Assembly: GCA_029565675.1 (NCBI GenBank)
Contig: JAKQNP010000040.1
Span: 1 to 64,000, forward strand
DNA: 64,000 bases
Direction: 5' to 3'
Source of the DNA: a bacterium
GTDB lineage: Bacteria > Zhuqueibacterota > Zhuqueibacteria > Residuimicrobiales > Oceaniaggregativiventaceae
Below are positions 26,344-56,176 of this stretch, in pieces (within the stretch, counting starts at the first letter, position 1; each line of letters opens with the position of its first letter). The notes beneath the pieces are model-generated. The model did no database searches. It worked only from the letters and a program-made list of their open reading frames with translations, and had not been told where the DNA came from. The translations under genes were made by a program, and so were the position numbers.

Positions 26344-26375
26344 TGTGCTGCCTTTTGCAAATATTGAATTTTCCA

Positions 26376-26404
26376 AACATAATAAAAAGAGAGTCGAATA
26401 TCAA
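26376..26404 (-). promoter_or_regulatory. Sigma-70-type promoter of the URO-D/symporter operon
   Basis: Read on the minus strand, TTGATA (26404-26399) and TATGTT (26381-26376) are spaced by 17 bases, about 35 bases before the ATG at 26343. The -35 box overlaps the stop codon of the upstream flavoprotein gene. Confidence 0.5.
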
Positions 26405-36798: not shown

Positions 36799-36811
36799 AC
36801 GGATCGTTGCG

Positions 36812-37852: not shown

Positions 37853-38303
37853 GATCCTGCAACAGACCGATATGTTTACGCTGGATGAAATCAGTGTGGC
37901 CATGGAATTGGTCGATATATTTTTGTTCAGCGCCGAGCAAAAGGATTATTTTATCTATGTCGCAACCACCCAGGCGGATCGAGTGGTCGGCTATATGTGT
38001 TACGGACCCACTCCTGCAACTGTAGGAACCTTTGATCTCTATTGGATCGCCGTTTCTCCGGACATGCAGAATCAGGGGGTGGGCAAACAACTGTTGTTGT
38101 ATGTCGAAAACCTCGTATTGGAACAGGAGGGGAGGATGTTGATTATCGAGACATCTTCGCAGGAGCGTTACAGCTCCACACAAAAATTCTATGAACGCAA
38201 TGGTTATGCGATCGAAGCCCGTATCGCTCATTTTTATCGGCTAGGGGACGATCGTCTGATCTATGTTAAACGATTCATACCCGCGAGAGGAGGCGAGGAG
38301 TAG
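37803..38303 (+). CDS. GNAT-family N-acetyltransferase
   Basis: This 166-residue protein is a single GNAT domain. The acetyl-CoA pyrophosphate loop is QNQGVGKQLL (about residues 90-99), preceded by the strand LYWIAVSP. The C-terminal segment SSTQKFYERNGYA is typical. The ATG at 37803 has AAGGAAA upstream and lies inside the end of ligase 2; an in-frame start further upstream would overlap the ligase for 400 bases and is rejected. Its position before the aminomutase parallels the ablA-ablB order, in which a GNAT acetylates beta-lysine. The substrate here is inferred. Confidence 0.8.
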   Translation: MIQIRKMLPRDRSAIYEILQQTDMFTLDEISVAMELVDIFLFSAEQKDYFIYVATTQADRVVGYMCYGPTPATVGTFDLYWIAVSPDMQNQGVGKQLLLYVENLVLEQEGRMLIIETSSQERYSSTQKFYERNGYAIEARIAHFYRLGDDRLIYVKRFIPARGGEE

Positions 38304-39446: not shown

Positions 39447-39468
39447 GCTCTTGTATAAGTGAAACGCG

Positions 39469-41259
39469 ATGTTTAGAATTCGCCGTATATTCGATGCAGT
39501 TCTTCCACAGAATCGCGCGGCTGTCGAGCAGGTCAAAGATATTCTGGCGGCTCAGTTCCAGCAAATCCGCAAGAAAGAGATCGATGCTTTGGCCGAAAAA
39601 CTGCGCAATCCTTTCAAAACCGGATTCCAGTCGATCCTGTTCGTTGCCGAAGATCAGAACAATCGTGTTCTTGGTTTTGCTCTGTTGCTGCATGAGCCAG
39701 ATATGCGTTTCGCCTATCTAGACTATCTTTCAGCAGCTGCGCAGCTTACCGGGCGTGGGATCGGTGGCGCACTCTATGAACGGGTTCGACAGGAAGCGCA
39801 GCTGCTGGGAGGCATTGGCCTGTTTTTTGAATGCCTACCCGACGACCCAAATTTGTGCAGCGACTTGGCGGTTTTGAAACAAAACGCTGCAAGGTTGAAA
39901 TTCTACGAACAATACGGCGCCTATCCTGTCACAGGGACCGCTTACGAAACACCGGTAAAACCAGACGACGAATGCGCCCCTTATTTGGTTTTTGATTCTC
40001 TTGGACTGCCGCCACGTCTGCGGCGGGAAAGTGCCAAACAAGTTGTGCGCGCCATTCTGGAGCGCAAATACGGCGATCTCTGTCCTCCTGCCTATGTGGA
40101 GAAAGTGGTTGCTTCGTTTCACCACGACCCGGTGCGCTTGCGTTCACCCCGTTATGTTACTGCTCCGCGCGAAAACAAGACTGCCTTTCAGATTCCTGCC
40201 GATGAACGCATTGTTTTAACGATCAACGACCGCCATAATATTCATCACATTCGCGAACGCGGCTATGTGGAATCGCCGATTCGCATCGCTCGAATCCGCG
40301 AAAAATTGGCGCCCACAGGATTATTCCAGGAAGTCAAGGTTCATTCCTATTCGGAAAAATGGTTGCGCTCGGTTCACGACAGCGATTTTATAAACTATTT
40401 GCACGCTGTCTGCCTAAAATTGGAAAACAAAAGATCGATTTACCCGTACGTTTTCCCCATCCGAAATGCTGCACGACCGCCAAAAGAATTGCCAATTCGT
40501 GCCGGTTACTATTGCATCGACACTTTTACTCCCTTGAACCGCAACGCCTATATGGCTGCCAAACGCGCAGTTGATTGCGCCCTGACCGCAGCCTCGAGTT
40601 TGTTGCACGGCCACCTGCTCGCTTATGCTCTGGTTCGACCACCCGGCCACCACGCCGAAAACCGGGCTTTTGGCGGATTTTGTTATTTCAATTCAAATGC
40701 AATTGCTGCGGAGTTTCTCAGTCGACATGGCCGGGTTGCCATTCTCGATATCGATTATCATCACGGCAACGGCCAACAGCAAATTTTCTACAGCCGCAGT
40801 GATGTGTTGACGGTTTCCATTCACGGCCATCCCAGTTTTGCCTACCCCTATTTTAGCGGTTTTGCCGATGAACAGGGAGAAGGCGAGGGCAAAGGCTTTA
40901 ATATCAATTTGACCCTTCCCGAATCTGTAGATGGCGATCGCTATCGACAGTCCCTGCAAAAGGCGCTGGGCAAAATCAAACAATTCGATCCTGATTTCCT
41001 CGTCATTGCGCTGGGCCTGGATACCGCAAAGGGAGATCCAACCGGTTCCTGGAATCTCGCCGCCTGCGATTTTCTTGCAAACGGCGAGATGATCGGCAAA
41101 TTGCACCGGCCCACTCTGGTGGTGCAGGAAGGCGGCTACAATACCCGAAATATGGGCCGAAATGCCGAGCACTTTTTTACTGGGTTGTGGAGCGAACTGG
41201 TTGGGGCGAGAAATAAATCAGCAAGAAAATCCTCTTACTCCGGCAAAGGGTCGACATGA
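39469..41259 (+). CDS. GNAT-histone-deacetylase-like amidohydrolase fusion
   Basis: This 596-residue protein joins an N-terminal GNAT domain (about 1-180; LTGRGIGGALYERVR near residue 93) to a class II HDAC/acetylpolyamine amidohydrolase domain (about 245-580). The deacetylase site is complete: RPPGHH (His394/His395), Zn ligands Asp429 and His431 in LDIDYHHGNG, the third ligand Asp518 in GLDTAKGDPTG, and the Tyr of EGGY (554-557). One chain thus has an acetyl-adding and an acetyl-removing module. It closes the aminomutase operon. A small acetylated amine is the likely substrate, because bacteria lack core histones. Confidence 0.85.
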   Translation: MFRIRRIFDAVLPQNRAAVEQVKDILAAQFQQIRKKEIDALAEKLRNPFKTGFQSILFVAEDQNNRVLGFALLLHEPDMRFAYLDYLSAAAQLTGRGIGGALYERVRQEAQLLGGIGLFFECLPDDPNLCSDLAVLKQNAARLKFYEQYGAYPVTGTAYETPVKPDDECAPYLVFDSLGLPPRLRRESAKQVVRAILERKYGDLCPPAYVEKVVASFHHDPVRLRSPRYVTAPRENKTAFQIPADERIVLTINDRHNIHHIRERGYVESPIRIARIREKLAPTGLFQEVKVHSYSEKWLRSVHDSDFINYLHAVCLKLENKRSIYPYVFPIRNAARPPKELPIRAGYYCIDTFTPLNRNAYMAAKRAVDCALTAASSLLHGHLLAYALVRPPGHHAENRAFGGFCYFNSNAIAAEFLSRHGRVAILDIDYHHGNGQQQIFYSRSDVLTVSIHGHPSFAYPYFSGFADEQGEGEGKGFNINLTLPESVDGDRYRQSLQKALGKIKQFDPDFLVIALGLDTAKGDPTGSWNLAACDFLANGEMIGKLHRPTLVVQEGGYNTRNMGRNAEHFFTGLWSELVGARNKSARKSSYSGKGST

Positions 41260-42332
41260 CCGGTGCGGTGCAGTTGTTCCACGGCAAACAGGGCTGCATC
41301 GCGATTTTTTACCTGACAGATGCGCGAAAAACCGGTGCGGATGCGATCGCGATAATCAGCGGCGATCGGGACCGTCCATTGCACCAGAGCGATGCCGTGC
41401 GCGGCACAAGTTTCGTGCATCTCGAGCAAATCGTAATATTCACCTTGATAAGGATTGATCCCCCGCAATCCAGGCAGTGTCAAAAGCTCTTTCCACCACT
41501 GATGCGCTCTGCCGCAAAAGTGAATCCAGCCTCCCCACGGCTGCAAAAGCTGGGCATCGAACTCTCTTACCCACTTGCCATATGCGGTGCCGCTCAGATT
41601 GACCGTCGAGTCGTTGCGCACACAAACACCGCCTAAATAATTCCATGCACCGTCATGCTCAACCAAAGCGCGGCCGTCTACAAGCCGTTGCCGTTTGACT
41701 GCTTCAGCAATCGTCAGAGTGACCAGCTGCATCAGATCGCATATTTTTTCTGGTTGATCGTAGAACGCCAGGTAGATGTCCGATCCCCAGATGATGCTGG
41801 CATTGTCAAATGGACCCTGGATATCGAACATTTGGTAACCAATTTCCTGGGAAAGGAGGGGGTACGGCTGCAGCGCTTGTTGGTAAAAAGCCACAGTTTC
41901 TTCGATCTGCAGCCATGCAGGTTGCTGAAACGAGGGCACTCCCCGTTGCAGCAGGCCCTCGATAGCTGCCTGGCCCAGCGGCAGAGCGATCGGCAATGCG
42001 TGGTCAAAAGTCCGGATCTCGCAACCAAAGAGTGAAGCGATGATGCCGGTGCCGAAGTTGGCGCGGATGCCGGTCAGCCGGTCGTCTTTGATCAGGGCCG
42101 ACAGGTAGATCGGCCGCAGCTCGTTAAGCAGCATTTTTTGCCGGTCCGCGATAAATTCGTCAAAGCGAAAGGTGGGCCATTCCTCTTGCGCCACTGGAAA
42201 ATCGATCGCCGTCGGTAGATGATCGACAGGCTGAAAGGCGAATGCGCGTTTTTGCAATTCCCGCGATTTGCGCAGATGGTCAGGATCGAGGATTTTTTCC
42301 AGTTTTTCCAGGTAGTGATGCAGGTTTTTCAT
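41235..42332 (-). CDS. URO-D-fold protein retaining an H-x-C-G site
   Basis: This 365-residue protein has a divergent URO-D fold. The metal-site motif reads IHFCGRAHQW (about residue 270), so the H-x-C-G form of the zinc methyltransferases is kept, but the later part differs (VQWTVPIAADYRDRI). Residues 1-60 are helical and charged. It converges with the GNAT-HDAC gene, overlapping its 3' end by 25 bases, and ends the leftward glycan operon after GH2. A methyl-transfer or lyase role is conceivable; no function is proven for this subgroup. Confidence 0.65.
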   Translation of the reverse strand: MKNLHHYLEKLEKILDPDHLRKSRELQKRAFAFQPVDHLPTAIDFPVAQEEWPTFRFDEFIADRQKMLLNELRPIYLSALIKDDRLTGIRANFGTGIIASLFGCEIRTFDHALPIALPLGQAAIEGLLQRGVPSFQQPAWLQIEETVAFYQQALQPYPLLSQEIGYQMFDIQGPFDNASIIWGSDIYLAFYDQPEKICDLMQLVTLTIAEAVKRQRLVDGRALVEHDGAWNYLGGVCVRNDSTVNLSGTAYGKWVREFDAQLLQPWGGWIHFCGRAHQWWKELLTLPGLRGINPYQGEYYDLLEMHETCAAHGIALVQWTVPIAADYRDRIRTGFSRICQVKNRDAALFAVEQLHRTGHVDPLPE

Positions 42333-42353
42333 TATTCGTTCTTCTCAATGGCA

Positions 42354-45300
42354 TCAGCAGATGCGGTTCCAGTCGATCAAATCGAGCAGTCGCCGCGCAA
42401 ACCATTCGGCGGCTGGATTGCCGGTTATATGGTCGTGCAGGTGCAGCTGGCAGATGCGCCATACGCCTTTACCGGATCTTTTTTCAGCTGCGGCGAACTT
42501 GGGTTCCCAATCCGCCTGCCATGAACCATTGCCGCTGATCAGGATTGGAGTCCAGCCGGGAGCGACAAAAACGGTGTCCAAAAACGGCGTCACCCGATCC
42601 AATGGAGCGCTGTACCAAAACGAGAAATCTTTGGGCCCGAAACCGCTGGTCAGGTGGTGGCCGCAGCGAGCCACGAAATGGCGTTCTCCCATGCCGCATT
42701 TTTCCACTTTGATGCGATCGCCGGCGATTGTCATTTCTCCTGGTGCGAGCAAGAGCACTACGGCGGTTGCCCCCGCCTTGACCGCTTGTTCGATTTTTGT
42801 CATCTCACCGGTGTTTGACAACAACCCATCGAGGATCACCACTGCGTTTGCTGGCAGCGAATCCGGAATAGGCTCGGCAGCGATATTCAACGTTTGCAGG
42901 AGCGTTGCAGCCGGTCCAGGCGGAGCTGAGAAGGCATAGAAGTGGTGCCTCTGGTGTGCTGGCAAAGACGGAAAAATCGATAGCGTCGATTCCGATTCGC
43001 TCAACAGTGCGCCAGACTGGTCAAAGAGGCGCAAGCGGGCAATCCACTCGCAGCGGACGGATGTGCTGACCGGTTGAAAACGAACTTGCGCCGGGCAATA
43101 GCTGTCCAGCGCTTTGATCGCCGCCGATTGCTCGCCGCGCTGAGCGATTTGCCCTTCTTTTTCCAGAGTATAGACCAGTCGCAGATCTACGTAATTTTCT
43201 GCTGTATCGTTGCAGATCCAGGCTTCCAATTCGATCTCTTCGTCAAAATTCCAGGCCTGGCGGTCGCTGCGCCAACAAACCAGCAGCGGGGTCAGAGCCT
43301 CGCGATAGGCAAAGTAAGCAGGTTTGGCACGGCGTTCACTGTCGACGATCGCTTTCATCCAGCCTGCCGGAAATGCATCGATCAGCAGATGGATAGCAAA
43401 ACTGTGCATGTGCCGGTTGCGGCGGAATGCTTCAGTCATCAGGCGGGTGATCCACGCCTGGTGGGCATGGCTGGCTTCGACCCAGTCTTGCAGGGAAGCA
43501 GGGGTTTCAAACCAGAGATAGTGAAAACGGCCGGTCTGCGCCTGCAGAATGCGGTCGGGACTCCAGGTTTTTTCCACTTTTGCTGATTGCGGCAGCCACT
43601 CGGCCGGGTAATGCCGGCGCATGAGATCCACCGGATCAAGGCCTTCGGATCCGAATTCGCCGCACCCATAGTTCCAGCCAGGCTTGACTTTTTGCCAATA
43701 GCCTTTGTGGAGCTTGCCCAGATCGATGCCGTGGCCGTTGTACCAGCCGCAATAGCAATGGTTGTCCGGAAAGCCGGGTGCGGGAGGGTCGTAATCGCCA
43801 TCCACTGCTTTGATGACCTGGTCGGGATTTTCCTGACGGGCGACGAGATCGGCGATGGTAAAAAAATCTTGCAACTCACTGCGCAGCAGATGGCGGTGTG
43901 GTTCATCCATACCGTTCGGGAAGGGCTCATTGATGTATGAGATCAGGGCATTGCACGGATGGTCGCGAACCAGCCTGACCATTTCACCCACCTGGCGGAC
44001 TGCTTCGAGCCATTTTGGGCGGCGCAACACGCCAAACAAGGGCAGATCGGACTGCGTCAGCATGCCCAAACGATCACACATTTCATAAACCTGGCGCTGG
44101 ACCGGACGTTGGGTCAAACGGAGAAAATTGAGACCGGCAATTTTTGCCAACAGGATATCGTCGCGCAGTTGCTCCAAATTCTTTCGCATCACGCATTGCT
44201 GCTCATGGCCCATGGTGTTGGCGCCGCGCAATTTGATCGGTCGATCGTTGAGAAAAAAGCGTCCGCGCGGTTCGTCTGCAGTGTCCATGCGAAATGTCCG
44301 CATGCCAAAATCACATGCCAGGGAATCAATGGTTACCCCATTGGAGCCGAGCAAATCGACTTGCAGCTGATAAAGCCAGGGCGAATCCAGATCCCATCGC
44401 CGTACCGAATCGATCACGAATGGAACGCGAAACAGATTTTCCCCGGCGCCCGCTTTGAGCGGCAGTGCCGATTCCACGCGTTTGGCCACGTCTCCCAATC
44501 CCGGGATATGCAAGCCTTGCGGAGAAAAGCGCTTATTTTGAAAGATGATTTGGTCAAAATTCTTGCCGTACACTGACAAGTTGAACAGAACCTCTCCAGG
44601 GAAGACATCCGCTGAATGAACCGTGATCCATGCTTCGCCTGAACAACCGTCAGGCAGAAAACGGACAAAACAGTCGGCGATATGCATACGCGACCGCGCT
44701 TCGATGAACACCGGCTGATAGATCCCCATCGCCGGTGGGCAATGATGCCAGCCCATTTCGGCATCGTCGTAACCGGGACCGGTGGCGGCATAGAGCTTTT
44801 CGCCTTCATAATGCTCCGGGCTGTTTTCATCGCGGCTGCCCATAAAGATATAATCGTTTTCAACACGGATGACCACACAGTTTTTGCCGGGGCGAACCGC
44901 TGCGGTGATGTCGAATTCGAAGGGGGCAAAGAAGCCCTCGTGCGTACCGATGAAACTGTTGTTAACAAAGACCTGGGTTCGGTAATCAACTCCGTCGAAA
45001 CGGATAAAGATCGACCCCGCAGAGAAGAAAGGAGCGGTTAAATCGATAGTGGTGCGATAAATCGTGGCTTTGCGGCCGAGCGGCGGGCCGTAATGGGGGA
45101 CAACGACCGGTTGCCAATCGCCTTCGCCGTCCAACGCGGACTTGAAATCAGACCTGTCTGCGGTTGTTTCGATTCGCCAATCAAAGCGCTCCACCTCGAT
45201 GGTGTTGCGCGTGTGTTGGCAAGGCGGAGCGCAATCCCGCATAAAGGGAGCAAACTTGTGCCTATAAGAGGCGAGTTCCTGATCGAGTTTTTTCTGACAG

Positions 45301-45464
45301 TCGAGCTTTTCGGCCGGTTCTACGAGTTGCGGAACCGACAGCCACTCAGCCTGCCAAATTTGTTGCGGCGGAGGGGATGGTACCGGTTCGATGAGTTCCT
45401 GATCGCGCTGTTGAACGCGTTCAAGGGCAATACGGGCAAAAAAGTCCAATCTGTTTTCTGGCAT
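42354..45464 (-). CDS. Glycoside hydrolase family 2-like enzyme
   Basis: This 1036-residue protein has the GH2 architecture: a jelly-roll sugar-binding domain (about 90-260, with RFDGVDYRTQVFVN), an Ig-like domain, and a TIM barrel (about 400-720). The catalytic acid/base is probably Glu513 in the NE motif of SYINEPFPNG, and the nucleophile Glu603 in YGCGEFGSEG. A C-terminal domain (about 840-1036) has no recognised fold. There is no signal peptide, so it works in the cytoplasm on imported glycosides, consistent with the SSS gene just upstream. Specificity (galactosidase, mannosidase, glucuronidase) cannot be read. Confidence 0.85.
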   Translation of the reverse strand: MPENRLDFFARIALERVQQRDQELIEPVPSPPPQQIWQAEWLSVPQLVEPAEKLDCQKKLDQELASYRHKFAPFMRDCAPPCQHTRNTIEVERFDWRIETTADRSDFKSALDGEGDWQPVVVPHYGPPLGRKATIYRTTIDLTAPFFSAGSIFIRFDGVDYRTQVFVNNSFIGTHEGFFAPFEFDITAAVRPGKNCVVIRVENDYIFMGSRDENSPEHYEGEKLYAATGPGYDDAEMGWHHCPPAMGIYQPVFIEARSRMHIADCFVRFLPDGCSGEAWITVHSADVFPGEVLFNLSVYGKNFDQIIFQNKRFSPQGLHIPGLGDVAKRVESALPLKAGAGENLFRVPFVIDSVRRWDLDSPWLYQLQVDLLGSNGVTIDSLACDFGMRTFRMDTADEPRGRFFLNDRPIKLRGANTMGHEQQCVMRKNLEQLRDDILLAKIAGLNFLRLTQRPVQRQVYEMCDRLGMLTQSDLPLFGVLRRPKWLEAVRQVGEMVRLVRDHPCNALISYINEPFPNGMDEPHRHLLRSELQDFFTIADLVARQENPDQVIKAVDGDYDPPAPGFPDNHCYCGWYNGHGIDLGKLHKGYWQKVKPGWNYGCGEFGSEGLDPVDLMRRHYPAEWLPQSAKVEKTWSPDRILQAQTGRFHYLWFETPASLQDWVEASHAHQAWITRLMTEAFRRNRHMHSFAIHLLIDAFPAGWMKAIVDSERRAKPAYFAYREALTPLLVCWRSDRQAWNFDEEIELEAWICNDTAENYVDLRLVYTLEKEGQIAQRGEQSAAIKALDSYCPAQVRFQPVSTSVRCEWIARLRLFDQSGALLSESESTLSIFPSLPAHQRHHFYAFSAPPGPAATLLQTLNIAAEPIPDSLPANAVVILDGLLSNTGEMTKIEQAVKAGATAVVLLLAPGEMTIAGDRIKVEKCGMGERHFVARCGHHLTSGFGPKDFSFWYSAPLDRVTPFLDTVFVAPGWTPILISGNGSWQADWEPKFAAAEKRSGKGVWRICQLHLHDHITGNPAAEWFARRLLDLIDWNRIC

Positions 45465-45507
45465 CGGTTTTTCTCAAGCTATAATGGATTGTGCCGACTT
45501 GACCTGC

Positions 45508-47700
45508 TTACCATGCCCCAAGTCCCAGTTGTGCGATGGCATATAAAACCGCGAGTATTAAAAGTCCGCCGATGGTAAAAAGAACAATGCCGATAATATC
45601 GATTTTATCGAATTTTTCAAACTCCCAATTTGAATGCGGAAACAATTTTTTATCATCAAAACGCTGCGGTTGTGCATATGAGAGCTCAATTTCATGAGCA
45701 TCGACCTCGCGATTTGCCTGCACGGGTGTTTTCATTTTGACAAAAAAGCGATCCAGTCGCTGTTTGTCTTCCGGCTTGCTCAGGAGAGAGACAAGAATGA
45801 GTACGAAAAAGGGCACGCAGGTGCGAATGATCACCCGGATTGTCTCGTTGAGAGCGTGCGGATTTTTGCTCAGGTTGCCACCCAGCAGATCAAGGAGCAC
45901 CAACTCGAGCGTTAGCATGCCGCTGCCTTGCAGAACGCCGTTCTGGTTGTATTTCAATCCTTGCGTCCAGAAAATGGAATTTTTGGGTGTCTCATAGCTT
46001 TTGCGAAAAGTCATGCCAACCTCGAGCGATTGCGGGCGTTCGCCTGGCGCGCAACCTGCCTCGTTGAGGCTTTCCCAGATTTTGATCTCGGCTTGTCGTT
46101 CTTCCACATCGACCTGGCGAGCGAGATAAGTGCGCTCGACATGAATCGAATCGACGGTTTTTGCCAGATAAGGATGGGTCTTGACACCAGGCAGCATCGG
46201 AATTGCTACCTGCAGAATACCGAAAAAGAGCAGAGCGCTGACCATTGACCACCATGCGCCGGTGCGCGTCGCCCGGCGCCATTTCACGCCAAGCCAGAAG
46301 CCGGCCGCCATAAAGATGTTGAATTCCCACAGCAACTTGAGCATCTGAAAAACGGTATCAAACCAGCTGGCAAAAGCAACCCCGCCGAGCAAGATAAGAA
46401 ATCCGAATACTCTGCCGGTCCAGATATAGCCATGTTCGCTGAACTTTGGAAAAAGCGGGCGAAAAAAATTGTGTGTCATCAAGCTCGATGCCGTGAGCAT
46501 CAACGCATCGGCAGTGCTCATCAGAGCCGACATCAAACAAGCGATCATCAGACCGACCAATCCCACACCGACTGATCCGAGCAAATCGCGCGAGGCATGT
46601 CCCCATAGATAATCTGGATTTTTGACCACTCCGCTGTAGAGAATCACCAGCAAAAAGGCTGAAATGCCCCAGAGCAAGGTAGTAAAGCGTTTCATAAAGA
46701 TACCGGTGGTGAAGCCCAGACGGGCGGTATACTCATCTTTTGCTGAACCGCAGACGATCAGTTGATTGGCTTGCACTGCGACATTGATTTGACTCATGAT
46801 CATGATAGCGATAATATAGTACCAGGTAAAGTCGATCAATACCGGACTTCCCCAGATTTCGAATGCTTCCTGGGGCAAATGTGCCCGGGCGGCTTGCACC
46901 AGACCGCTTAAACCGCTGCCGCCGGTCAGGGTGTTGATCTTGACCGCGGCAAACGGCAGCAAAAGCAAAGAGAGGATCAGGATAAAGATACCCTGCAGCA
47001 TATCGGTCAAGAAAGCGGCCTCCAGACCACCCATCACGGCATAGATCATCACGATAATGGCAACCACCCAGATCAGAATTTTTTCATCGATGGGGGAGAA
47101 TTCCTTGCGCGGATTTTCGATCCGCAGGCGCTCGAGAGAGCTTTTATCATCTGCGCTCAACAGTGCACTGTCGGTATTTTCGAGTTGCTCCAATTCGAGA
47201 GCGTTTTCATATTCGGCGAGTTCGACGGATGAAAGTTGGTTTACAGGTTTGGCGGTGATGCCGGTAATGGTTTTGCTCATGGCGGTAAAACCCAGTCCGA
47301 TAACCAGCATAAAAAACGCAGCGCTGATCAGCGCATAGAGAGCGGCAATGCCCTTGGAGTTGTAACGGTCCTCGAAAAAATCGCCGAGTGTCAGCAGCCG
47401 CATGCGGCGATACCAGATCGATGTGATCCAATAGATCGGCAGACCAAAAACGCTGATCAAATTCTGCCATATGCCGGCTATCCCGTTGCGCGCCACCAGG
47501 ACTGTGGTACCGACTGCGCTCTCAGCTGAAGTGCTCTGTCCAAACGCAGCGAAGGTCTGTACCCATTTGCCGAAGCGTCGGCCGCCGAGAAAAAAATCTT
47601 CTTGATTGTGAATTCGCCGCGACGCATAGATGCCGATACAAATCACAAAACAAAAATAGATCGCGATCATAAGAATATCGATCAGGGGCAATCCGAACAT
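45508..47700 (-). CDS. Long SSS-family sodium:solute symporter
   Basis: This 730-residue membrane protein has the SSS core plus two soluble insertions. One is a charged loop of about 60 residues near 155-215 (LEQLENTDSALLSADD). The other is a segment of about 80 residues before the final spans (VDVEERQAEIKIWESLNE). A C-terminal extension carries two more spans, the last ending GLGAW. SSSs of this size often transport sugars or sugar acids. The gene lies between GH57 and GH2 genes, 12 bases from the former, and is the likely importer of their substrate. Confidence 0.88.
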   Translation of the reverse strand: MFGLPLIDILMIAIYFCFVICIGIYASRRIHNQEDFFLGGRRFGKWVQTFAAFGQSTSAESAVGTTVLVARNGIAGIWQNLISVFGLPIYWITSIWYRRMRLLTLGDFFEDRYNSKGIAALYALISAAFFMLVIGLGFTAMSKTITGITAKPVNQLSSVELAEYENALELEQLENTDSALLSADDKSSLERLRIENPRKEFSPIDEKILIWVVAIIVMIYAVMGGLEAAFLTDMLQGIFILILSLLLLPFAAVKINTLTGGSGLSGLVQAARAHLPQEAFEIWGSPVLIDFTWYYIIAIMIMSQINVAVQANQLIVCGSAKDEYTARLGFTTGIFMKRFTTLLWGISAFLLVILYSGVVKNPDYLWGHASRDLLGSVGVGLVGLMIACLMSALMSTADALMLTASSLMTHNFFRPLFPKFSEHGYIWTGRVFGFLILLGGVAFASWFDTVFQMLKLLWEFNIFMAAGFWLGVKWRRATRTGAWWSMVSALLFFGILQVAIPMLPGVKTHPYLAKTVDSIHVERTYLARQVDVEERQAEIKIWESLNEAGCAPGERPQSLEVGMTFRKSYETPKNSIFWTQGLKYNQNGVLQGSGMLTLELVLLDLLGGNLSKNPHALNETIRVIIRTCVPFFVLILVSLLSKPEDKQRLDRFFVKMKTPVQANREVDAHEIELSYAQPQRFDDKKLFPHSNWEFEKFDKIDIIGIVLFTIGGLLILAVLYAIAQLGLGAW

Positions 47701-47712
47701 GAGCGGTCCTCT

Positions 47713-49254
47713 CTAGAGCTTTTCAATCTCGATTCCACCGACCAGTTGTCGGGCGATTTGAAGGTCATCGGCGCGGATTTGGTATTCCGCCGGATAGAGC
47801 ACATGCTCTCCGCTTTGGTTCAATCGACCAGGATTGCGGACGGTTTGCAACCTGGCCTGCGCATCGGTGGCTGCGGCGTGCAGCCGCGGATCGCCGGAAG
47901 CGGCCAACTCTTTTGCCTTGGTGCTGATCCGCTCCGCTTGTGGAAACAGGATTTCCTGACAAGTTTGCCAAGGGTCGGTGGAAAGGCGAGAACGATCGAT
48001 CCCGCCGACCAGGAGCTCGGCCTTGAGCAGGTTCTCGAAACAGTAGCGATAATTGAACGGATGGATGATATGAGGCGCATCCGGCAAAGTCGGCGGCCAT
48101 TGGCCGTCCGAATTGTAGGAATTGGTGAGATGGTACCAGGCGCGATCCGCACTTTCCGGTTCCATCTTTTTTTGTTGCGCTTGCAGTTTTTCGCGGACGA
48201 GATCTTGCCAGGGGCGCAAGAGGCGTGCCATCGGTGTTTGTGCCCAGGTCGATGCACGTGCACCGTGCCAGGCAGAATCGTCGTCGAAACCGAGCTCTTC
48301 CGGCAGGGCCGGCAAGGAATGGCAGGCGTCTGAGAAGGTGATCAAGGAGCCGAGAGAACGACAGGATTCGACGAGGTCGATCAGTTTTTGCTGCGAATCC
48401 GGCGTCGCTTCGAAAACACGGTCCGGTTGATTCTCGTACTTTAAGCGAAACCAGCCGTTGGTGCCGATATATTCTGCATCATCGGCATAGATGATCAGCG
48501 CGCCCTCGGTTTCCCCTGCAGGTTGCTGTGAATACCTGGCGATCAATTCCTGATATTTTTCCAATGTATACCCCTGCATCCCCATGAAATAGCGCACGCC
48601 GAATTGAGCGATCCGGTCGGTGCGCAAAAAAATACGCAGCGGCGTGCCCTGCACACCGCGGATATGCTGAAAAGGAAAGTGAATGGCAGGTTCGGTTCCC
48701 GGCAAGTCATAACGGAAACCAAAATTGTAAAAGCCAGGTTCGTCTGAATGTTCTTTTTCATAGATCTCGGGCCTTAACGGCTGTCCATTGGCATCGACAG
48801 AGCGGCTGTAAGCTTCGAAATCGCCGATCAGATTTGTGTAACCGTTTTCCAATACTTGTTTCGGCACCTGGCCGTTCCAGCCGCATTCGGGATTCCAAAA
48901 GCTTGCCGGTGTCATTTCCAGGTGGCGTTGGTAGGCGCGATTGGAAAAGCGGATCGACCAACTGCCGTCCTCAGCCGGGAAATTGGGCAGCATTGGATGG
49001 GCATAGGGTGAACCCATGAATTCGCATTGGCCGCCGGCAACCGCCCGGCGCAACTTTTCCAGCACATCGGGCGTGCGTTGGGCGATCTCATCCAAAGTGT
49101 ATCCGGAGGCTTCAAAGACATATTGACAATCCGGAAAACGATGGTGAAAGGTGTCGATGATCATCTCATACGCGCGGCGGATGACGAATTCATAGCGATC
49201 CGGGGTCAGGTATGCGTAGTTGAGATTGGCATGGAAAATCAGGATCGGATGCAT
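47713..49254 (-). CDS. Glycoside hydrolase family 57-like enzyme
   Basis: This 513-residue protein matches the GH57 (beta/alpha)7 barrel: the N-terminal HANLNYAYL region, VFEASGYTLDEI, CEFMGSPYAHPMLP, then the nucleophile segment SFWNPECGW (Glu123) and a catalytic-type aspartate in IIYADDAEYIG (258-259). GH57 includes alpha-amylases, 4-alpha-glucanotransferases and alpha-galactosidases. No signal peptide is present. AAAGGAACAC precedes the ATG at 49254; a longer in-frame start has no support. It follows three URO-D-fold genes and precedes the SSS symporter. Confidence 0.8.
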   Translation of the reverse strand: MHPILIFHANLNYAYLTPDRYEFVIRRAYEMIIDTFHHRFPDCQYVFEASGYTLDEIAQRTPDVLEKLRRAVAGGQCEFMGSPYAHPMLPNFPAEDGSWSIRFSNRAYQRHLEMTPASFWNPECGWNGQVPKQVLENGYTNLIGDFEAYSRSVDANGQPLRPEIYEKEHSDEPGFYNFGFRYDLPGTEPAIHFPFQHIRGVQGTPLRIFLRTDRIAQFGVRYFMGMQGYTLEKYQELIARYSQQPAGETEGALIIYADDAEYIGTNGWFRLKYENQPDRVFEATPDSQQKLIDLVESCRSLGSLITFSDACHSLPALPEELGFDDDSAWHGARASTWAQTPMARLLRPWQDLVREKLQAQQKKMEPESADRAWYHLTNSYNSDGQWPPTLPDAPHIIHPFNYRYCFENLLKAELLVGGIDRSRLSTDPWQTCQEILFPQAERISTKAKELAASGDPRLHAAATDAQARLQTVRNPGRLNQSGEHVLYPAEYQIRADDLQIARQLVGGIEIEKL

Positions 49255-49344
49255 TGTGTTCCTTTCAGGATAAACAGCAAGATCAATCTTAATACGGTCT
49301 GGCTGATCGGATTGATTAAACCTCTTCAAGGAAATCCGCAAATG

Positions 49345-50463
49345 CTAGGCGCAGAAGGATTGCGGAAAACGCTCAGCTAATTTTATTGCTTCTTGTTCTG
49401 TGATGTTCGTGCAGCTGATCAAAATTCCCCGGCTGCCCACTGCTTGCACAAGATCATCGATCTCTTCCGGTCGGGCAAAAATTTGTACTGATTTCCGGTG
49501 CGCCAAAATGGTGCGGATCAGTTCGGTCCATTGGGCAATGCTCTCCCTGCCGGCGCCAGGCTGCCATTGGATCGCCTTCAGACGGTTTAGCCGCAAAAGG
49601 CTGGGGAGATGTGCCAGCGCTCTGTTTCCATCCAGATGATAGAGGGGATAATCGAGAAAATCGACCAAATCACCCAGGACTGGCAGGCAAAATTCATCGA
49701 AACAATCCGGAGAGAGCATGTATGAACAATCTTCTTGTAAAGGGAAAGTGGTGCCCGGTGCCCAGATGCCCGCCCAACCGATGCCTTCTCCTGGATGTGA
49801 CGCTGATAACAGGGATTGGATTTCCGCAAAAGCGTCGATCCAGAGCCGTTGTAAATGTTTGAGTACCGGCTTGATTCGTTTCTTGTGGTCGAGCAGCGAC
49901 GTCAGCGTTGTTTCTGCGCCACAGAGTCCAATGAGGTTGTCGAGAACACCGCCTAGGGCAAAGGGAGCAACAAAATGATGTCCCGGCGCTTTTTGGGTGG
50001 AGCGGCGGGTCAACTCGATGATGGTCTGATAGAAAGGCTGGTGAGGATCAAGACGACAGCGCAACGCTTCTTCAATATCGACAAAGACCGGATGGGCCCA
50101 GATGGTTTCGCTATCGATGAACTCCACTCGGGCGCCGAGCGCACAGGGCATGGCGCTGGCGCCGAGGTCGATGTAATGAAAGGGGACGGCCTCGCCGAGC
50201 CAGTGAGTCTGCTCGATTCGTGCCATCTCACGCGCCATCACGCCATCGATATCGGTCCAGTATCCTGACAGATCACGATCTTGCGGCAGAGACGGGCGGT
50301 CGGGTTCGATGGTGGCCAGGATACAGGGACTTTCCTGATCACCAAATTCCCACCAGTTCTGCAAGCGCTGCATCTTGTTCGGGTCTGCAATTCTTGCCGC
50401 GGAAACGGCTGGTGCCGCCTTGGCATACGAACTTGGATAGGGGTTGTCAGGGTTCGATTTCAT
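49345..50463 (-). CDS. URO-D-fold protein with YHLDG motif (copy A)
   Basis: This 372-residue protein is a close relative of its upstream neighbour. Both share the segments CSYMLSPDCFDEFCLPVLGD and LYHLDGNRALAHL (here near residue 270), and end with a conserved QWQPGAG segment. The metal-site H-x-C-G of URO-D methyltransferases is replaced by YHLDG. Its ATG at 50463 overlaps the end of the upstream paralogue by 17 bases, so the pair is translated together and may form a heterodimer. Function unknown. Confidence 0.7.
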   Translation of the reverse strand: MKSNPDNPYPSSYAKAAPAVSAARIADPNKMQRLQNWWEFGDQESPCILATIEPDRPSLPQDRDLSGYWTDIDGVMAREMARIEQTHWLGEAVPFHYIDLGASAMPCALGARVEFIDSETIWAHPVFVDIEEALRCRLDPHQPFYQTIIELTRRSTQKAPGHHFVAPFALGGVLDNLIGLCGAETTLTSLLDHKKRIKPVLKHLQRLWIDAFAEIQSLLSASHPGEGIGWAGIWAPGTTFPLQEDCSYMLSPDCFDEFCLPVLGDLVDFLDYPLYHLDGNRALAHLPSLLRLNRLKAIQWQPGAGRESIAQWTELIRTILAHRKSVQIFARPEEIDDLVQAVGSRGILISCTNITEQEAIKLAERFPQSFCA

Positions 50464-51544
50464 ATTTCTGCAAGAGTTCGATGACTTGGTTGCGCTGCGA
50501 GATGTCGGCATCGAGCACCGCCGCAAAAGCACCCGGGCGACCGGTTTGTTCGATCAGCTGGTCAATCGTGTCCAGACGGCCTCCGGCTTGCACATTGAAG
50601 AATTGCACATGCTTGCCTTTGGCCGTGATCCTCCGGTAGATTTCCGGCCAGCATCCGATATCAGGCGCTGCGTCGCCGGGAACCCATTGGATGCCGCGAA
50701 TCGCTTCGATCGCCAACAAATCGTCCAGATGGACTTTGGCATTGACGCCGTCGAGGTGATAAAAGGCATGGTCAAGCTTTTCAGCGCTTTGGCGCAGTTC
50801 CGGTAGGATGAAGCGGTGAAAAGCGTCAGGCCCGATCATATAAGAAAAATCGCATTGCAGCATGTAGTAAGGAGTTCGGGAGAAGAGAGGTGTCCAGCAG
50901 CTGTAGCCTGGATTGGTTTTTTGCAGCCGATTGTTCAGCAGGCCAAAAACCTGCCACCACGCCTGATGGGCTTGCCAGGTGAGGCGTTCCACTTCTTCTG
51001 GATCATCAAAAAGAGCCAGCAGCAATTTCTCGCCCGGCAGAAAAGTAGAGACCAGATCCAGATTGCCGCCCAGGTCGGTCATGCCGATCTGGACCTGTCC
51101 TTGCCAGCGAGCCACGCCGGCCTCGATGAGGTCGACCAACCGCTGCAACCAGGGGTGTTGCCAATTGACTTTCAATTCGATTTCAGCGGGTTTTTGCTCC
51201 GCCGGCGCGTGAAACCATACCGTCTCTTCCCGCAATTCCGGACGTGCACCCATGAATGCCCCCAGAACGCCGGCGCCGAAATTGGGCCAAAAGTGTGGGA
51301 AAGCGTCGCCCAGGAACTCGGTGCAGCAGAGCTCATAGTCGATGCGGTCAATCACCTGTTCGGCCGGGATCGCAAAGTCGTAAAAAGCCGTGAATTCGTG
51401 AAAAGGCAAGGGAGATGCGGGGCGCCGCGGATCTTTGCCGCGCAATCTAACCTGTATCAACGGCCGGTTGAGTTTATTTTGCCACCAGAGTTCAGTTTGT
51501 CGTTGCACCCGCTCCCAGCGGTCAGCAGAAAAATCGATCGGCAT
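50447..51544 (-). CDS. URO-D-fold protein with YHLDG motif (copy B)
   Basis: This 365-residue protein has CDFSYMIGPDAFHRFILPEL and FYHLDGVNAKVHLDDL (near residue 250), and GIQWVPGDAAPDIG. Like copy A it lacks the H-x-C-G zinc motif. The N terminus (residues 1-110) carries WWQNKLNRPLIQV, which occurs in expanded URO-D families of Verrucomicrobiota, Lentisphaerota and related bacteria. It starts directly beside the stop of the upstream URO-D gene (51545). The YHLD Asp may bind substrate or metal. Role unknown; its glycan-operon position is the best clue. Confidence 0.7.
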   Translation of the reverse strand: MPIDFSADRWERVQRQTELWWQNKLNRPLIQVRLRGKDPRRPASPLPFHEFTAFYDFAIPAEQVIDRIDYELCCTEFLGDAFPHFWPNFGAGVLGAFMGARPELREETVWFHAPAEQKPAEIELKVNWQHPWLQRLVDLIEAGVARWQGQVQIGMTDLGGNLDLVSTFLPGEKLLLALFDDPEEVERLTWQAHQAWWQVFGLLNNRLQKTNPGYSCWTPLFSRTPYYMLQCDFSYMIGPDAFHRFILPELRQSAEKLDHAFYHLDGVNAKVHLDDLLAIEAIRGIQWVPGDAAPDIGCWPEIYRRITAKGKHVQFFNVQAGGRLDTIDQLIEQTGRPGAFAAVLDADISQRNQVIELLQKYEIEP

Positions 51545-52798
51545 TTATCCTCCCATCTCTATGCAGCGCAGTCTATAATGTCGATAATTTTGCCAGGTCA
51601 CCTCAGGCGGTACACCATGGTCGCAAGTCGGGATATATCCGCCGCGCCGACGCATTGCCGGCAGAATTTCCTGCAAATGCGCATCGATTGCTCGTGGGCC
51701 CTGGGCCAGCACGCGTTTGTCGATGCCACCGCTCAGCACCATCCAGGGATAGTCGCGTCCGATTTGCTTCACATGGCATCCAGAAGCCACTTCAAACGGG
51801 CTCATGACATCCATCCCGATGGCGTTGCGATAGAGCTCGATTACCGGCACCGCATATCCGTCCGTGTCGAGTTGAACATAGAGATGACGGTTGCGGTCGA
51901 TCTGCCGCCGGCGCACCCGGCCGACCAACTCTTGATAATAAGGAAACAAAAATGCTTTGATCATATCGGGGGAGATCAGCGGACCGTTGTTGTAGCAGAT
52001 GTCCTCGCCAATATAGAGCTCATCCAGGGTGACGTATTGCTGATGTGCTGCGATGACGCGGTCGGCGAGTTCCAGCCAGGTCTGCATGCAGTCGTGCAGC
52101 AGATCCGGATGATCGTAGAAAAAGAAAAGCAAATTTTCCGGCCCAATCAGGCTGCGCAGATACATATAACCGCCGATGAGGCGCTGCTGGATCATTTTGC
52201 CGGTTCCGGCTGCAGCGATTGCGCTCCGCATTCTCGCTTCAAGAGAATGCCAACGCTCCGGTGTTCCCGGGTCTAGGCGCCATTTGACCTCTTCTTCCCA
52301 GGATCGTCGGTCGTGTACGGGATGGTCGAGATATTCGGGCATGAATCCCTGACGCCGACCTTTGAAATAGAGCACATGCCTGCCGGCGGTATCGCGGACG
52401 ATTTCTTTATCGCCGAGATCTTTGACCACCTCTTCCTGAAAAACAGGCGAAAATTCGGCTTCACACCAACCCAATTCCATCAACTCGTGATGCCCAGGCG
52501 GGTCAAAGAAGAAAAATTCGTCCAAATCGATGGAACGGTCCAACCCGGTTTCGTACCAGTGGTCGATGGCCATCCACAGGCCAAAAGTTTTTCGAAAAAA
52601 CGGCGCATCAGGGACCCGGTTATAAGTGTCGCGCAGTTTGACTGCCGCAGCACACATTCTTTCGCGCGGTACCGGGGCATGCACACCATTTGCAGCAGTT
52701 TGATGTCGTTGCAGCACGTTTACCTGATATCCTTTTCTGTCTTCGGTTCGATACCCATATAAGTGAAAATCACTTTGCCACACTCGTTCGATATTCAT
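51545..52798 (-). CDS. URO-D-fold protein with degenerate metal site
   Basis: This 417-residue protein has URO-D features: VPRERMCAAAVKLRD near residue 45, YLRSLIGPENLLFFFYDHPD, and SGGIDKRVLAQG near the C terminus. The metal-site region reads VQLDTDGYAVPVIE, with no His or Cys. It also has CDHGVPPEVTW, which is common in this family. The start is uncertain: the ATG at 52798 overlaps the end of the beta-helix gene by 29 bases, and a GTG at 52717 with AGGTAAAC upstream may be the true start. Confidence 0.65.
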   Translation of the reverse strand: MNIERVWQSDFHLYGYRTEDRKGYQVNVLQRHQTAANGVHAPVPRERMCAAAVKLRDTYNRVPDAPFFRKTFGLWMAIDHWYETGLDRSIDLDEFFFFDPPGHHELMELGWCEAEFSPVFQEEVVKDLGDKEIVRDTAGRHVLYFKGRRQGFMPEYLDHPVHDRRSWEEEVKWRLDPGTPERWHSLEARMRSAIAAAGTGKMIQQRLIGGYMYLRSLIGPENLLFFFYDHPDLLHDCMQTWLELADRVIAAHQQYVTLDELYIGEDICYNNGPLISPDMIKAFLFPYYQELVGRVRRRQIDRNRHLYVQLDTDGYAVPVIELYRNAIGMDVMSPFEVASGCHVKQIGRDYPWMVLSGGIDKRVLAQGPRAIDAHLQEILPAMRRRGGYIPTCDHGVPPEVTWQNYRHYRLRCIEMGG

Positions 52799-54995
52799 CG
52801 ATATACAGGCCGATCGCCGCAAATGGAATTTTTTTGAATTCGGGCAATTCCTTATACACCGGCGAATCATCGGAGAGCTGAAAATTCAAATCGGCTTTAT
52901 CTATAAAACCCGGGTCTTGAGAACTGATCAAGTTCAATCCTATTTCGAATTGTGCATGTTCGCCGACCCACCGATAGGTTTCGTCATACCCGATGATCGC
53001 GTTGTGGTAAAAGCGATTTCGGCGAGGACGCATGCCGACAAAAGTTTTACCGTCTGGCAGCAGGTCCATCCAGTCCACGAGTTCCGGATAGCGTTCGCTG
53101 TAGGGCGGCTTTTTGATGTCCAGCAGCTGGGTTAATCGGCGGTGATAGATGCCGCCGGAATCAAAAAAAATCGACACCTGATCACGGCCGAAATCGTACC
53201 ACATCGATTTGATGGTCAGGACCGGGCCATAACCTTCCACAAAGATATTGTTGCGCACTTCGAGGTCGTGGCCGGCATTGCTGTAAATCGTGCCGTAGGA
53301 CCCGACACGATAAAAGACATTGCCTTCGACCAGCGCACCGCAGGTGCCATCGTCGAAATAGACGCCCATGGTCCATTCGCGTTCCGGATTGCCGCAGTGA
53401 TGAAAAAAATTGTAGCGGATCACGTTGCCGCGATCGCTGGGATCCCGCCCCAGATACCAGGGCGATGAATCGTTGGAATTGAGAGCGATATGATGGATGT
53501 GGTTGTATTCAAAGAGATGATTGTTGCCATGCACATAGATCCCCTGGAAATCTGAATTGTAAATCTCATTGTGGGAGATGCGATTGCCGCAGCCATCGAT
53601 GTTGATGCCTGACCAGAGAAACTTGTTGCGACGGTTGTAGTCGTAGAGGCGACAATTTTCCACCGAACAATTGCCCGCTGTCAGTTCTTTTTTGCTGCCG
53701 CCGCTCAGATAGATAGCGCCGCTGCCGGTGTCGTAGATATCGCAGCTGAGGATGCGGTGATTTTTGCCGCCGTTGCGTTCCCAGGTGGTGTATTTGTACA
53801 GGTGACCCTGCAGGTTACCGATCTCGCGCGAGACCGGAAAACCTTCATAATCGTCTACGGTAATGTGGGGGAAGGTTTGTCGGGCACCCTGGCCCATGAA
53901 AATTCCGGTCATGCCCAATGCATGCAAAGTGCAACCGGCGATCAAATTGTTTTCCCCGCCTTCGATCGTGATGCCGATACCGCGGCTCATGCCGATAGTC
54001 AAATTTTTCAGATCGACAAAGGAGACATTTTCCATCACGATCAGAGGATCCTCTAACACGGAGACGCGGATTTCCGCATTGGCAAGATTGGCAGGCGGCC
54101 ATACGTACAAACGACCGTTCTTGCGATCGATATAATACTCGCCGGCTTGATCGAGTTCTTCCAGCAAATTGTGCGCATAATAATGGCGATAGGGTTTTCC
54201 AGTTCCGATGCCGTAGAGATGCGGATAAGCCAGGCGAACAGTTTTGGCTGCGGTATCGATTGCTGCCACCTGGATGTGATCGTCGGCATATCCCCACATA
54301 AAGGTGCCCTGCAGCCAAAGGTTGTCGGTCTGCATCCAGCGCGCATGGCGGTCATCGGTATAGCGAAAAGTGCCGCCGCGGATGTTTTCATAGTCGCCGA
54401 TGCGGGGAATGGAGCCGGGATCGAGGACCTCGCCGATCAACAGATAACCGCTGTTGGGGTAGCGCGCCAAGGTCATGACCCGGCGGTTGATAAAGAGTTC
54501 CATCTGGGCCGGTACCACCGATTGCGAATGGCCGTATTGCTGCAATCGGCCGTAATCCAGGATGCCTAGTTTGCGCAGATCGCAGCTCCAAACCTTGCCG
54601 CGGCTGATTTCAGGCAGGCGGCGTAAAAGTTCGGATGGCTGCACCGGCTGAAAAGATTCAGCGGGCAGGGCGTGTGAGCCGGTGATCAGCACGGATTCGC
54701 CCGGCCATGCGCTATAGGTGATGCGGGAAGTGGGCGTGCCTGAATCTTGTTCGAGCAATTCAAAACTGCTCGCAAGCTCATAGATACCCTGGCGCAGCCA
54801 CACCGTGGCGCCTTCCGCCGGCAGATCGTTTTGGGCTTTCAGCGCACGAATGACATCCCGGGCTTTCTCCAGAGTGCGAAAGGGTTTGCTCTCGCTGCCG
54901 GGCCAATTGTCGTCGCCGTTGGGTGAAACCGTCAATTCCAAACTCCAGAGCGGAACCGTAGTCACGATCAACAGGATGAACAGGAAATTTTTCAT
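52770..54995 (-). CDS. Secreted right-handed beta-helix protein
   Basis: This 741-residue protein has a signal peptide (residues 1-18, ending near WSLE) and a long parallel beta-helix repeat region (about 290-600). The repeats show the N-x-I/V-x-x-N pattern (NCSVENCRLYDYNRR, ISHNEIYNSDFQGIYVHGNN, NVIRYNFFHHCGN). The N-terminal segment DDNWPGSESKPFRTLEKARD is typical of DUF1565/pectate-lyase-like proteins. Such enzymes cleave or bind acidic polysaccharides outside the cytoplasm. GAGGAAGAT fixes the start at 54995. It opens the group with GH2, GH57 and SSS. Confidence 0.85.
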   Translation of the reverse strand: MKNFLFILLIVTTVPLWSLELTVSPNGDDNWPGSESKPFRTLEKARDVIRALKAQNDLPAEGATVWLRQGIYELASSFELLEQDSGTPTSRITYSAWPGESVLITGSHALPAESFQPVQPSELLRRLPEISRGKVWSCDLRKLGILDYGRLQQYGHSQSVVPAQMELFINRRVMTLARYPNSGYLLIGEVLDPGSIPRIGDYENIRGGTFRYTDDRHARWMQTDNLWLQGTFMWGYADDHIQVAAIDTAAKTVRLAYPHLYGIGTGKPYRHYYAHNLLEELDQAGEYYIDRKNGRLYVWPPANLANAEIRVSVLEDPLIVMENVSFVDLKNLTIGMSRGIGITIEGGENNLIAGCTLHALGMTGIFMGQGARQTFPHITVDDYEGFPVSREIGNLQGHLYKYTTWERNGGKNHRILSCDIYDTGSGAIYLSGGSKKELTAGNCSVENCRLYDYNRRNKFLWSGINIDGCGNRISHNEIYNSDFQGIYVHGNNHLFEYNHIHHIALNSNDSSPWYLGRDPSDRGNVIRYNFFHHCGNPEREWTMGVYFDDGTCGALVEGNVFYRVGSYGTIYSNAGHDLEVRNNIFVEGYGPVLTIKSMWYDFGRDQVSIFFDSGGIYHRRLTQLLDIKKPPYSERYPELVDWMDLLPDGKTFVGMRPRRNRFYHNAIIGYDETYRWVGEHAQFEIGLNLISSQDPGFIDKADLNFQLSDDSPVYKELPEFKKIPFAAIGLYIDEYRTSVAK

Positions 54996-55120
54996 ATCTT
55001 CCTCGTTTGTTGCCACTCAGTACATCTGATTTGTCGATCAAGGCCTGGACTGGTCAGAGTCGGCAGGCATGGCAAGCAGACGCAACCATTGGGTACCAGT
55101 CGGTACATTGTAGAGTGTCG

Positions 55121-56176
55121 CTATTTGGAGCTTTTCCCGGTGTTCCTGCTCGCCACGGGTGAATAAACACCATAATGGCGGAATGCTTCGCACATGGCGC
55201 GGATATTGTCGGGCTTGATCTGGATAACCTCCGGAGTGGTGTAGCACATGCTCACCAGACCACCGTTGTGGCTGCCGATGGTCTGCATCATCCTTTGTAC
55301 ATAGGCGACCACCTGTTCCGGAGTGCCGCTGCTGAGCGTCCGCTGAATATCTACCGGGCACCAGAAGGCGATGCGGCCTCCGAAGCGTTTCGAAAGGTTT
55401 TCCAATCCCATATTTTCCTGCTGATCCATCTGGATGACATTGAGGCCGGCATCGATGAAATCGTCGAGGATATCGACGATGCAGCCGCAGGAATGCATCC
55501 AGACCTGCATGCCCAAATCGTGTGCGCGCTGCCAGTTGGCGCGGTAATGGGGCAGGAAAAATTCGCGGATCAAATCGCGGCTGACCATCAGACGGTCCTG
55601 CAGACCCCAATCGTCGTAGAGCATCACGCCATCACAGCCGAGTTTTGCCATCAGTTCAATCGATTCGCGCTGTTTTTCGGCGAAGCGGGCAATGAGAGCT
55701 TTGAGGTGGTCGGGATGGAGATGATAGCTGAGAAACATCTGATCGAGGCCGATGTTGTTGTGCACTCCTTCATTCAAAGAGGAAAAGCCGAGAACGCCGA
55801 GGGCATATAGCGGATTTTCGGCAGCGTTGTTGGCTGCTATGGCTGCCCGGTGCGCTCGATAATAGCGAGGGTCATTGCGATCGGGAAAGAGATATTCGGC
55901 CTGGTGGGTAATGTCGGGTATCGAGGCCTGTTTAGCCTGACCGATGTCGTTTGGCTGGCCATTGGCCCGTTCCCACACTGTACCCCAGGCGTCGATGCGA
56001 CGGTCGATATCGCCGATCCGGGTCCATGGCTGGCGGTCGGGCGGGGTGGTGTCAGGTCCCATGGTCCACGGCGCCAACCACAGGATGTCATTTGGTTTGC
56101 CGTCGGGCAAATAGTGTGGAAGTTGATCGGGATGGCGAAAGGTGATGGCTCGCTTGACGCGTTCACGGCTGGTCAT
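55121..56176 (-). CDS. URO-D-fold protein with intact H-x-C-G site
   Basis: This 351-residue protein begins TSRERVKRAITFRHPDQLP, a typical URO-D superfamily start. It keeps the zinc methyltransferase motif WMHSCGCIVD (about residue 243) and a later cysteine in IAFWCPVDIQ; LYDDWGLQDR near residue 197 is also typical. Among the six URO-D-type genes in the window it is the best candidate for a true corrinoid-linked or zinc methyltransferase, although no corrinoid protein gene lies close by. A strong promoter precedes it, and it heads the leftward cluster. Confidence 0.75.
   Translation of the reverse strand: MTSRERVKRAITFRHPDQLPHYLPDGKPNDILWLAPWTMGPDTTPPDRQPWTRIGDIDRRIDAWGTVWERANGQPNDIGQAKQASIPDITHQAEYLFPDRNDPRYYRAHRAAIAANNAAENPLYALGVLGFSSLNEGVHNNIGLDQMFLSYHLHPDHLKALIARFAEKQRESIELMAKLGCDGVMLYDDWGLQDRLMVSRDLIREFFLPHYRANWQRAHDLGMQVWMHSCGCIVDILDDFIDAGLNVIQMDQQENMGLENLSKRFGGRIAFWCPVDIQRTLSSGTPEQVVAYVQRMMQTIGSHNGGLVSMCYTTPEVIQIKPDNIRAMCEAFRHYGVYSPVASRNTGKSSK

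Follow-up and report, generated by a model that had tools for sequence, protein, structure and literature searches.

Five URO-D-fold proteins in a glycan utilisation operon of a KSB1 bacterium: a possible role in the demethylation of sugars

Introduction

What do five proteins of the URO-D fold do in an operon for the breakdown of carbohydrates? The question is raised by a stretch of 64,000 nucleotides (the window) on contig C44 of an uncultured bacterium of candidate division KSB1, in which genes for these proteins stand together with glycoside hydrolases (GHs), a sodium:solute symporter (SSS) and a secreted beta-helix protein. The best single reading is that the operon serves to import and degrade an O-methylated glycan, with the URO-D proteins demethylating its sugars via a corrinoid. 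We give this a probability of roughly 0.45, somewhat under even odds; its main rival is a sugar reaction that does not involve methyl groups.

A preliminary description of the window had seen the genes in the frame of URO-D expansions in Lentisphaerota and Verrucomicrobiota. The host lies outside both, and relatives of the same URO-D subfamily do also occur there. The further statement that the reaction is not established holds for the present subfamilies and fails for the superfamily, of which O-demethylases and halomethane methyltransferases have been characterised (PMC13222342, PMC10418091). The host assembly (G000) comprises 4.43 Mb in 64 contigs and is 95% complete; the comparison set consisted of 119 genomes, with G001 as a same-genus relative of the host.

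Results and Discussion

The operon at 41235–56176 consists of nine minus-strand genes, some of them overlapping and none separated from the next by more than about 125 bases. The described alternation of five URO-D-fold genes with GHs, a symporter and a secreted beta-helix protein was recovered in full, each open reading frame lying where it had been placed and the fold being assigned by Pfam, hhalign or structural model. In the direction of transcription the genes are:

55121–56176, minus strand: URO-D-fold protein 1 (P0005); Pfam URO-D 1.5e-14, subfamily alignment of 30
52770–54995, minus strand: secreted right-handed beta-helix protein, GH141-like (P0010); Pfam Beta_helix 1.9e-19, GH141_M weak
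51545–52717, start approximate (longest open reading frame to 52870), minus strand: URO-D-fold protein 2 (P0004); Pfam URO-D 3.7e-11
50447–51544, minus strand: URO-D-fold protein 3 (P0003), HLDG, Pfam-negative; hhalign, AlphaFold2 (AF2) and Foldseek
49345–50511, start approximate, minus strand: URO-D-fold protein 4 (P0002), HLDG, Pfam-negative; family profile shared with P0003
47713–49254, minus strand: GH57-like glycoside hydrolase (P0008); Pfam GH57 2.6e-22
45508–47700, minus strand: sodium:solute symporter SSS (P0011); Pfam SSF 5.1e-26
42354–45464, minus strand: GH2 glycoside hydrolase (P0009); Pfam GH2 domains
41235–42332, minus strand: URO-D-fold protein 5 (P0001), invariant HFCG, Pfam-negative; hhalign and family alignment

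P0005, with the motifs HSCG, QMDQQENMG and FWCPVDIQ and a start at 56176 that is conserved among relatives, is likely the first gene. Catalytic-type motifs are intact in both hydrolases (PEC and DDAEY in P0008, NEP and GEFG in P0009). With GHs and a transporter in one predicted transcription unit that is conserved elsewhere, the operon qualifies as a glycan utilisation locus. Inspected by eye, P0010 carries a signal-peptide-like N-terminus, while none is evident on the other operon enzymes including the GH57-like and GH2 proteins, which suggests that the URO-D proteins work in the cytosol after import.

All five proteins belong to the URO-D TIM-barrel superfamily, although P0001, P0002 and P0003 gave no match in Pfam or NCBIfam. 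The P0002/P0003 family aligns with the URO-D core at 97.4% in hhalign (E 1.6e-11), the P0001 family at 94% (E 1.1e-7); for P0001 the fold is predicted by profile comparison alone. An AF2 model of P0005 with a predicted local distance difference test score (pLDDT) of 88.7 has HemE and MtaA as nearest solved folds, with a template modelling score of about 0.6 to HemE. The P0003 model, built from six sequences, reaches a pLDDT of 75 and has UROD and MtaA as best Foldseek matches.

The host genome holds 37 such proteins: 33 matched by Pfam URO-D, P0001, P0002 and P0003 from the window, and a further one on contig C2. Five of them within 15 kb is far beyond random scatter (Poisson estimate about 2e-7). 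Tandem duplication was rejected as the source of the five copies, which fall into at least three separate lineages in a tree with several poorly supported deep branches; the sole close pair is P0002 and P0003, with 28% identity in the alignment. HemE identity was likewise tried and discarded. The top score among the URO-D matches of the host genome is 209.7 bits versus about 376 to 481 for HemE-type matches in relatives, so the host appears to lack HemE, and the outcome that the preliminary description had named as refuting its reading, that the proteins prove to be HemE, is excluded.

Two observations concern the family at large. A 539-aa protein of the host (L124:9049–10668; G000 C3:104054) is a URO-D fused to a thioredoxin domain, and open frames of about 540–560 aa among the URO-D matches of many relatives suggest that this fusion is conserved. 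In the 7.6 Mb genome of another relative, G054, up to 69 URO-D candidates were seen at first look, 15 of which were scored.

Parts of the operon are retained in other genomes. G001 (locus L047) keeps the order P0005–beta-helix–P0004–P0003–P0002–GH57 at 65–78% identity, with P0001–GH2–SSS on another contig. P0004–P0003–GH57–SSS–GH2 is kept in G003, where P0005–beta-helix lies on another contig; G056 keeps P0004–P0003–P0002–SSS as well as P0005–beta-helix, and G020 the pair P0005–P0001. Identities of the P0004 orthologues in G001, G003 and G056 are 67–78%, and a relative of the beta-helix protein adjoins the P0005 orthologue in all three (L047, L046 and L043). In a Chloroflexi metagenome-assembled genome (MAG; L048), P0005- and P0001-like genes are accompanied by GH38, GH2, L-rhamnose mutarotase (rhaM) and two additional URO-Ds. 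Among the 119 genomes, P0005 orthologues of at least 55% identity occur only where P0001 or P0002/P0003 types are present too. This recurrence in related genomes and a Chloroflexi MAG indicates an arrangement under selection. An obligate tie between GH57 and URO-D was rejected, a GH57-like orthologue in G040 standing without the URO-Ds of the operon. The gene arrangement is genuine, it is conserved, and nothing like it was found in the literature searched, which covered few subscription papers and contained nothing relevant on URO-D proteins in polysaccharide loci or on corrinoid-dependent sugar O-demethylation.

The association with carbohydrate genes that had been proposed is seen both in the host and in relatives. 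Among the 25 neighbour families listed for the other URO-Ds of the host are SSF, GFO/IDH/MocA, AXE1, GH20, GlcNAc epimerase, a sugar transporter and a GH78-type family; these are largely missing from nine control stretches, a comparison that is a tally and not a statistical test. Homologues of P0005 elsewhere lie near sulfatases, beta-helix proteins, arabinofuranosidase and DegT, and in some lineages near tRNA synthetase genes. P0003 relatives adjoin RhaT, GH3 and MFS_2 sugar transporters, and one P0001 relative adjoins SSF and additional URO-Ds. Rhamnose genes recur near relatives and paralogues, namely rhaM, RhaT and a GH78-type gene beside two host paralogues. Also in the host, tandem L-rhamnose mutarotase domains share one 252-aa open frame (G000 C35:18686–19333; L228, L229).

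A profile of 22 URO-D proteins, mostly host paralogues, was compared with the PDB and found MtaA first (4ay7, 1e-21), followed by HemE (from 7e-17) and CdmB (1.9e-5). Counted from a motif table, 27 of the 37 host proteins carry H-x-C or H-x-D at the zinc-ligand positions of MtaA; the third zinc Cys is found among these in C35_3909 only, being mostly replaced by His or Asn. The window proteins read HSCG (P0005), HFCG (P0001), HLDG (P0002 and P0003), DTDG ... CDH (P0004) and HSDG in a sixth copy, P0006. P0005 has a further Cys one position off the third MtaA ligand, which its relatives do not keep. A simple MtaA-type thiol S-methyltransferase was rejected, since the full His-Cys-Cys set is absent from the window proteins. 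S-methyltransferases of the superfamily use His-Cys-Cys, whereas O-methyltransferases swap one or both Cys for carboxylates or non-coordinating residues (PMC10418091), and some members need no zinc (PMC13222342). Given this rule, the loss of Cys ligands makes the metal sites lean towards O- rather than S-methyl chemistry, without amounting to proof.

With the methylcobamide:coenzyme M (CoM) methyltransferases MtaA and MtbA (SCMTs) the window proteins thus have in common the fold, the first rank of MtaA in the PDB comparison and H-x-C-G in P0001 and P0005; they differ in the missing third Cys, the lack of any sign of CoM use and their place in a sugar operon. To the O-demethylases and halomethane type I methyltransferases (MtvB, OdmB, VdmB, MtoB, CmuA, CdmB) they are linked by superfamily, a loss of Cys ligands that is possibly of the O-methyltransferase type, the CdmB profile match and the corrinoid and activator genes of the host. 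Here the differences are the GH/SSS context and the want of cognate corrinoid and type II genes in the operon, direct sequence comparison covering CdmB alone. HemE shares the TIM barrel and differs in sequence, motifs and gene context.

The preliminary description had noted no haem or corrinoid genes nearby. This is correct for the locus, as the window contig has no B12-binding match, no type II methyltransferase and no activator, the operon no corrinoid gene and the whole genome no match at HemE level; elsewhere, however, the genome encodes free corrinoid proteins and two copies of RACo. One host contig (C4) carries a cluster of a URO-D, a corrinoid protein, MTHFR and a pterin-binding enzyme, another (C3) acetyl-CoA synthase, CFeSP and RACo. 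Relatives of the window proteins stand beside such genes in two MAGs: in L071 (Chthonomonadales), P0003-, P0004-, P0005- and P0006-like and further URO-Ds accompany homocysteine S-methyltransferase, DUF1638 and RACo, and in L077 (Armatimonadetes) the locus of a P0005-like gene and two URO-Ds also encodes FTHFS, a corrinoid protein and a pterin-binding enzyme. RACo was found in 13/13 carriers of P0001/P0002/P0003 types (strong matches) versus 50/106 other genomes (Fisher p 1.3e-4), and within the phylum in 12/12 carriers versus 38/70 (p 0.0015). Among the URO-D-rich genomes of the phylum the count was 21 of 23 versus 29/59 (p 2.7e-4). All these tests are uncorrected for phylogeny and genome size, with cut-offs chosen after viewing the lists.

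Sugar O-demethylation is favoured by MtaA as nearest solved relative, the leaning of the metal site, the one-carbon (C1) genes, L071 and L077, the co-occurrence with RACo, the rhamnose neighbours and the conservation of the operon. Of the earlier suggestion that the proteins act on methyl or acid derivatives of sugars, the methyl half has gained ground through MtaA, the leaning of the metal site and the RACo, corrinoid-protein and homocysteine-methyltransferase neighbours in related loci; the acid half gained no support. In the pathway that we infer, the secreted beta-helix enzyme would cleave the glycan outside the cell, the SSS protein would import the fragments, and the GH57-like and GH2 enzymes would release the sugars in the cytosol. 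The URO-D proteins, as putative type I methyltransferases, would then strip O-methyl groups and pass them to a corrinoid protein encoded elsewhere, which RACo would reactivate and from which the methyl group may go to tetrahydrofolate or acetyl-CoA synthase. Separate URO-D lineages may serve different methyl positions or sugars, and the most divergent ones may bind or rearrange instead of demethylating. Judging from the neighbour genes, methylated 6-deoxyhexoses or 6-O-methylgalactose are our guess for the substrate. The P0010 protein matches PDB entry 9rx2 (2.5e-19) and is distantly related to GH141, a family with alpha-L-fucosidase, xylanase and endo-fucanase activities (PMC10154630, PMC5593877, PMC12786026), with a similarity so weak (BT_1002, E 0.05) that the family is uncertain. 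No anaerobic sugar O-demethylase was found in the literature searched, only the aerobic route of marine bacteria in which a cytochrome P450 demethylates 6-O-methyl-D-galactose oxidatively (PMC10033563). That system has the same task, the demethylation of a glycan sugar, but is O2-dependent and uses an unrelated enzyme.

Several findings weigh against sugar O-demethylation by the URO-D proteins. The operon lacks a corrinoid protein, an activator and a type II methyltransferase, unlike the characterised O-demethylase systems, and none of its genes directly indicates a methylated sugar. Methyl-transfer genes are nearby in just 2 of 80 P0005-family loci (tblastn, with sequences of the host genome). 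With 37 URO-Ds facing few free corrinoid proteins, corrinoid sharing would be required. Two URO-D-rich genomes, G018 and G037, gave no RACo matches, and phylogeny, genome size or anaerobic life may explain the RACo association. The metal-site residues are also mixed (DxD in P0004, HxD in P0002 and P0003).

This mixture, together with the deep divergence of the operon URO-Ds and the fact that sugar genes are common neighbours and adjacent corrinoid genes rare, is what speaks for the main rival: a metal-assisted elimination, an isomerisation or the decarboxylation of a sugar acid, with corrinoid chemistry abandoned. We regard it as unlikely, though to be taken seriously, as the same types stand beside methyl-transfer genes in L071 and L077 and co-occur with RACo. 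To our knowledge, moreover, no solved member of the superfamily performs sugar chemistry.

Improbable is a corrinoid methyltransferase whose donor is not a sugar but a methoxylated aromatic compound, a methyl ester released with the glycan, or a methylated thiol or amine. The superfamily enzymes MtvB, OdmB, VdmB and MtoB do act on methoxylated aromatics (PMC13222342), but GHs and symporter are conserved as partners across genomes, and the neighbours of relatives are sugar-linked. Still less can be said for a reverse or service role, in which sugars are methylated or methionine and thiols are metabolised near sugar genes. The homocysteine S-methyltransferase of L071 would suit it, as would the DegT-type aminotransferases, typical of sugar-nucleotide synthesis, beside more distant P0005 relatives; the catabolic character of the operon with its GHs and symporter and the lost His-Cys-Cys thiol site do not. 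That the proteins are HemE paralogues of haem biosynthesis has, in spite of the shared fold, practically no chance with HemE-like scores unreached, three Pfam-negative types and a catabolic operon.

Outside the operon, two further features of the window are of interest:

25288–26376, minus strand: sixth URO-D protein (P0006), HSDG; Pfam URO-D 1.2e-20, SSS gene adjoining at 23434–25080
22513–23319, minus strand: stand-alone protein with CFeSP-type Fe-S domain (P0007); Pfam PF04060 1.7e-9, downstream of P0006 and the adjoining SSS gene

The sixth copy in another operon with an SSS gene had been described as such and was found again. The PF04060-type domain of P0007 occurs in the CFeSP large subunit of the host as well, and a link of P0007 to the sixth URO-D and its symporter is possible; no P0007 relatives were present in the loci compared. 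On the plus strand, 35731–41259 encodes two ATP-grasp proteins (D-Ala-D-Ala ligase-like), a GNAT protein, a lysine-2,3-aminomutase-like radical SAM protein and a fusion of GNAT and histone deacetylase (39469–41259), which suggests the synthesis of beta-lysine derivatives or a small peptide. The fusion gene converges on the last URO-D gene, their 3' ends overlapping at 41235–41259.

Conclusion

The glycans of algae, plants and bacteria commonly contain methylated sugars. Rather tentatively, we propose that the operon represents a family of corrinoid O-demethylases which are specific for O-methylated sugars, belong to the glycan operons of anaerobes and feed methyl groups from glycans into the Wood-Ljungdahl pathway, and which would explain some of the URO-D expansions. 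If true, this would give a function to part of these expansions in uncultured bacteria and would tie glycan breakdown to C1 metabolism.

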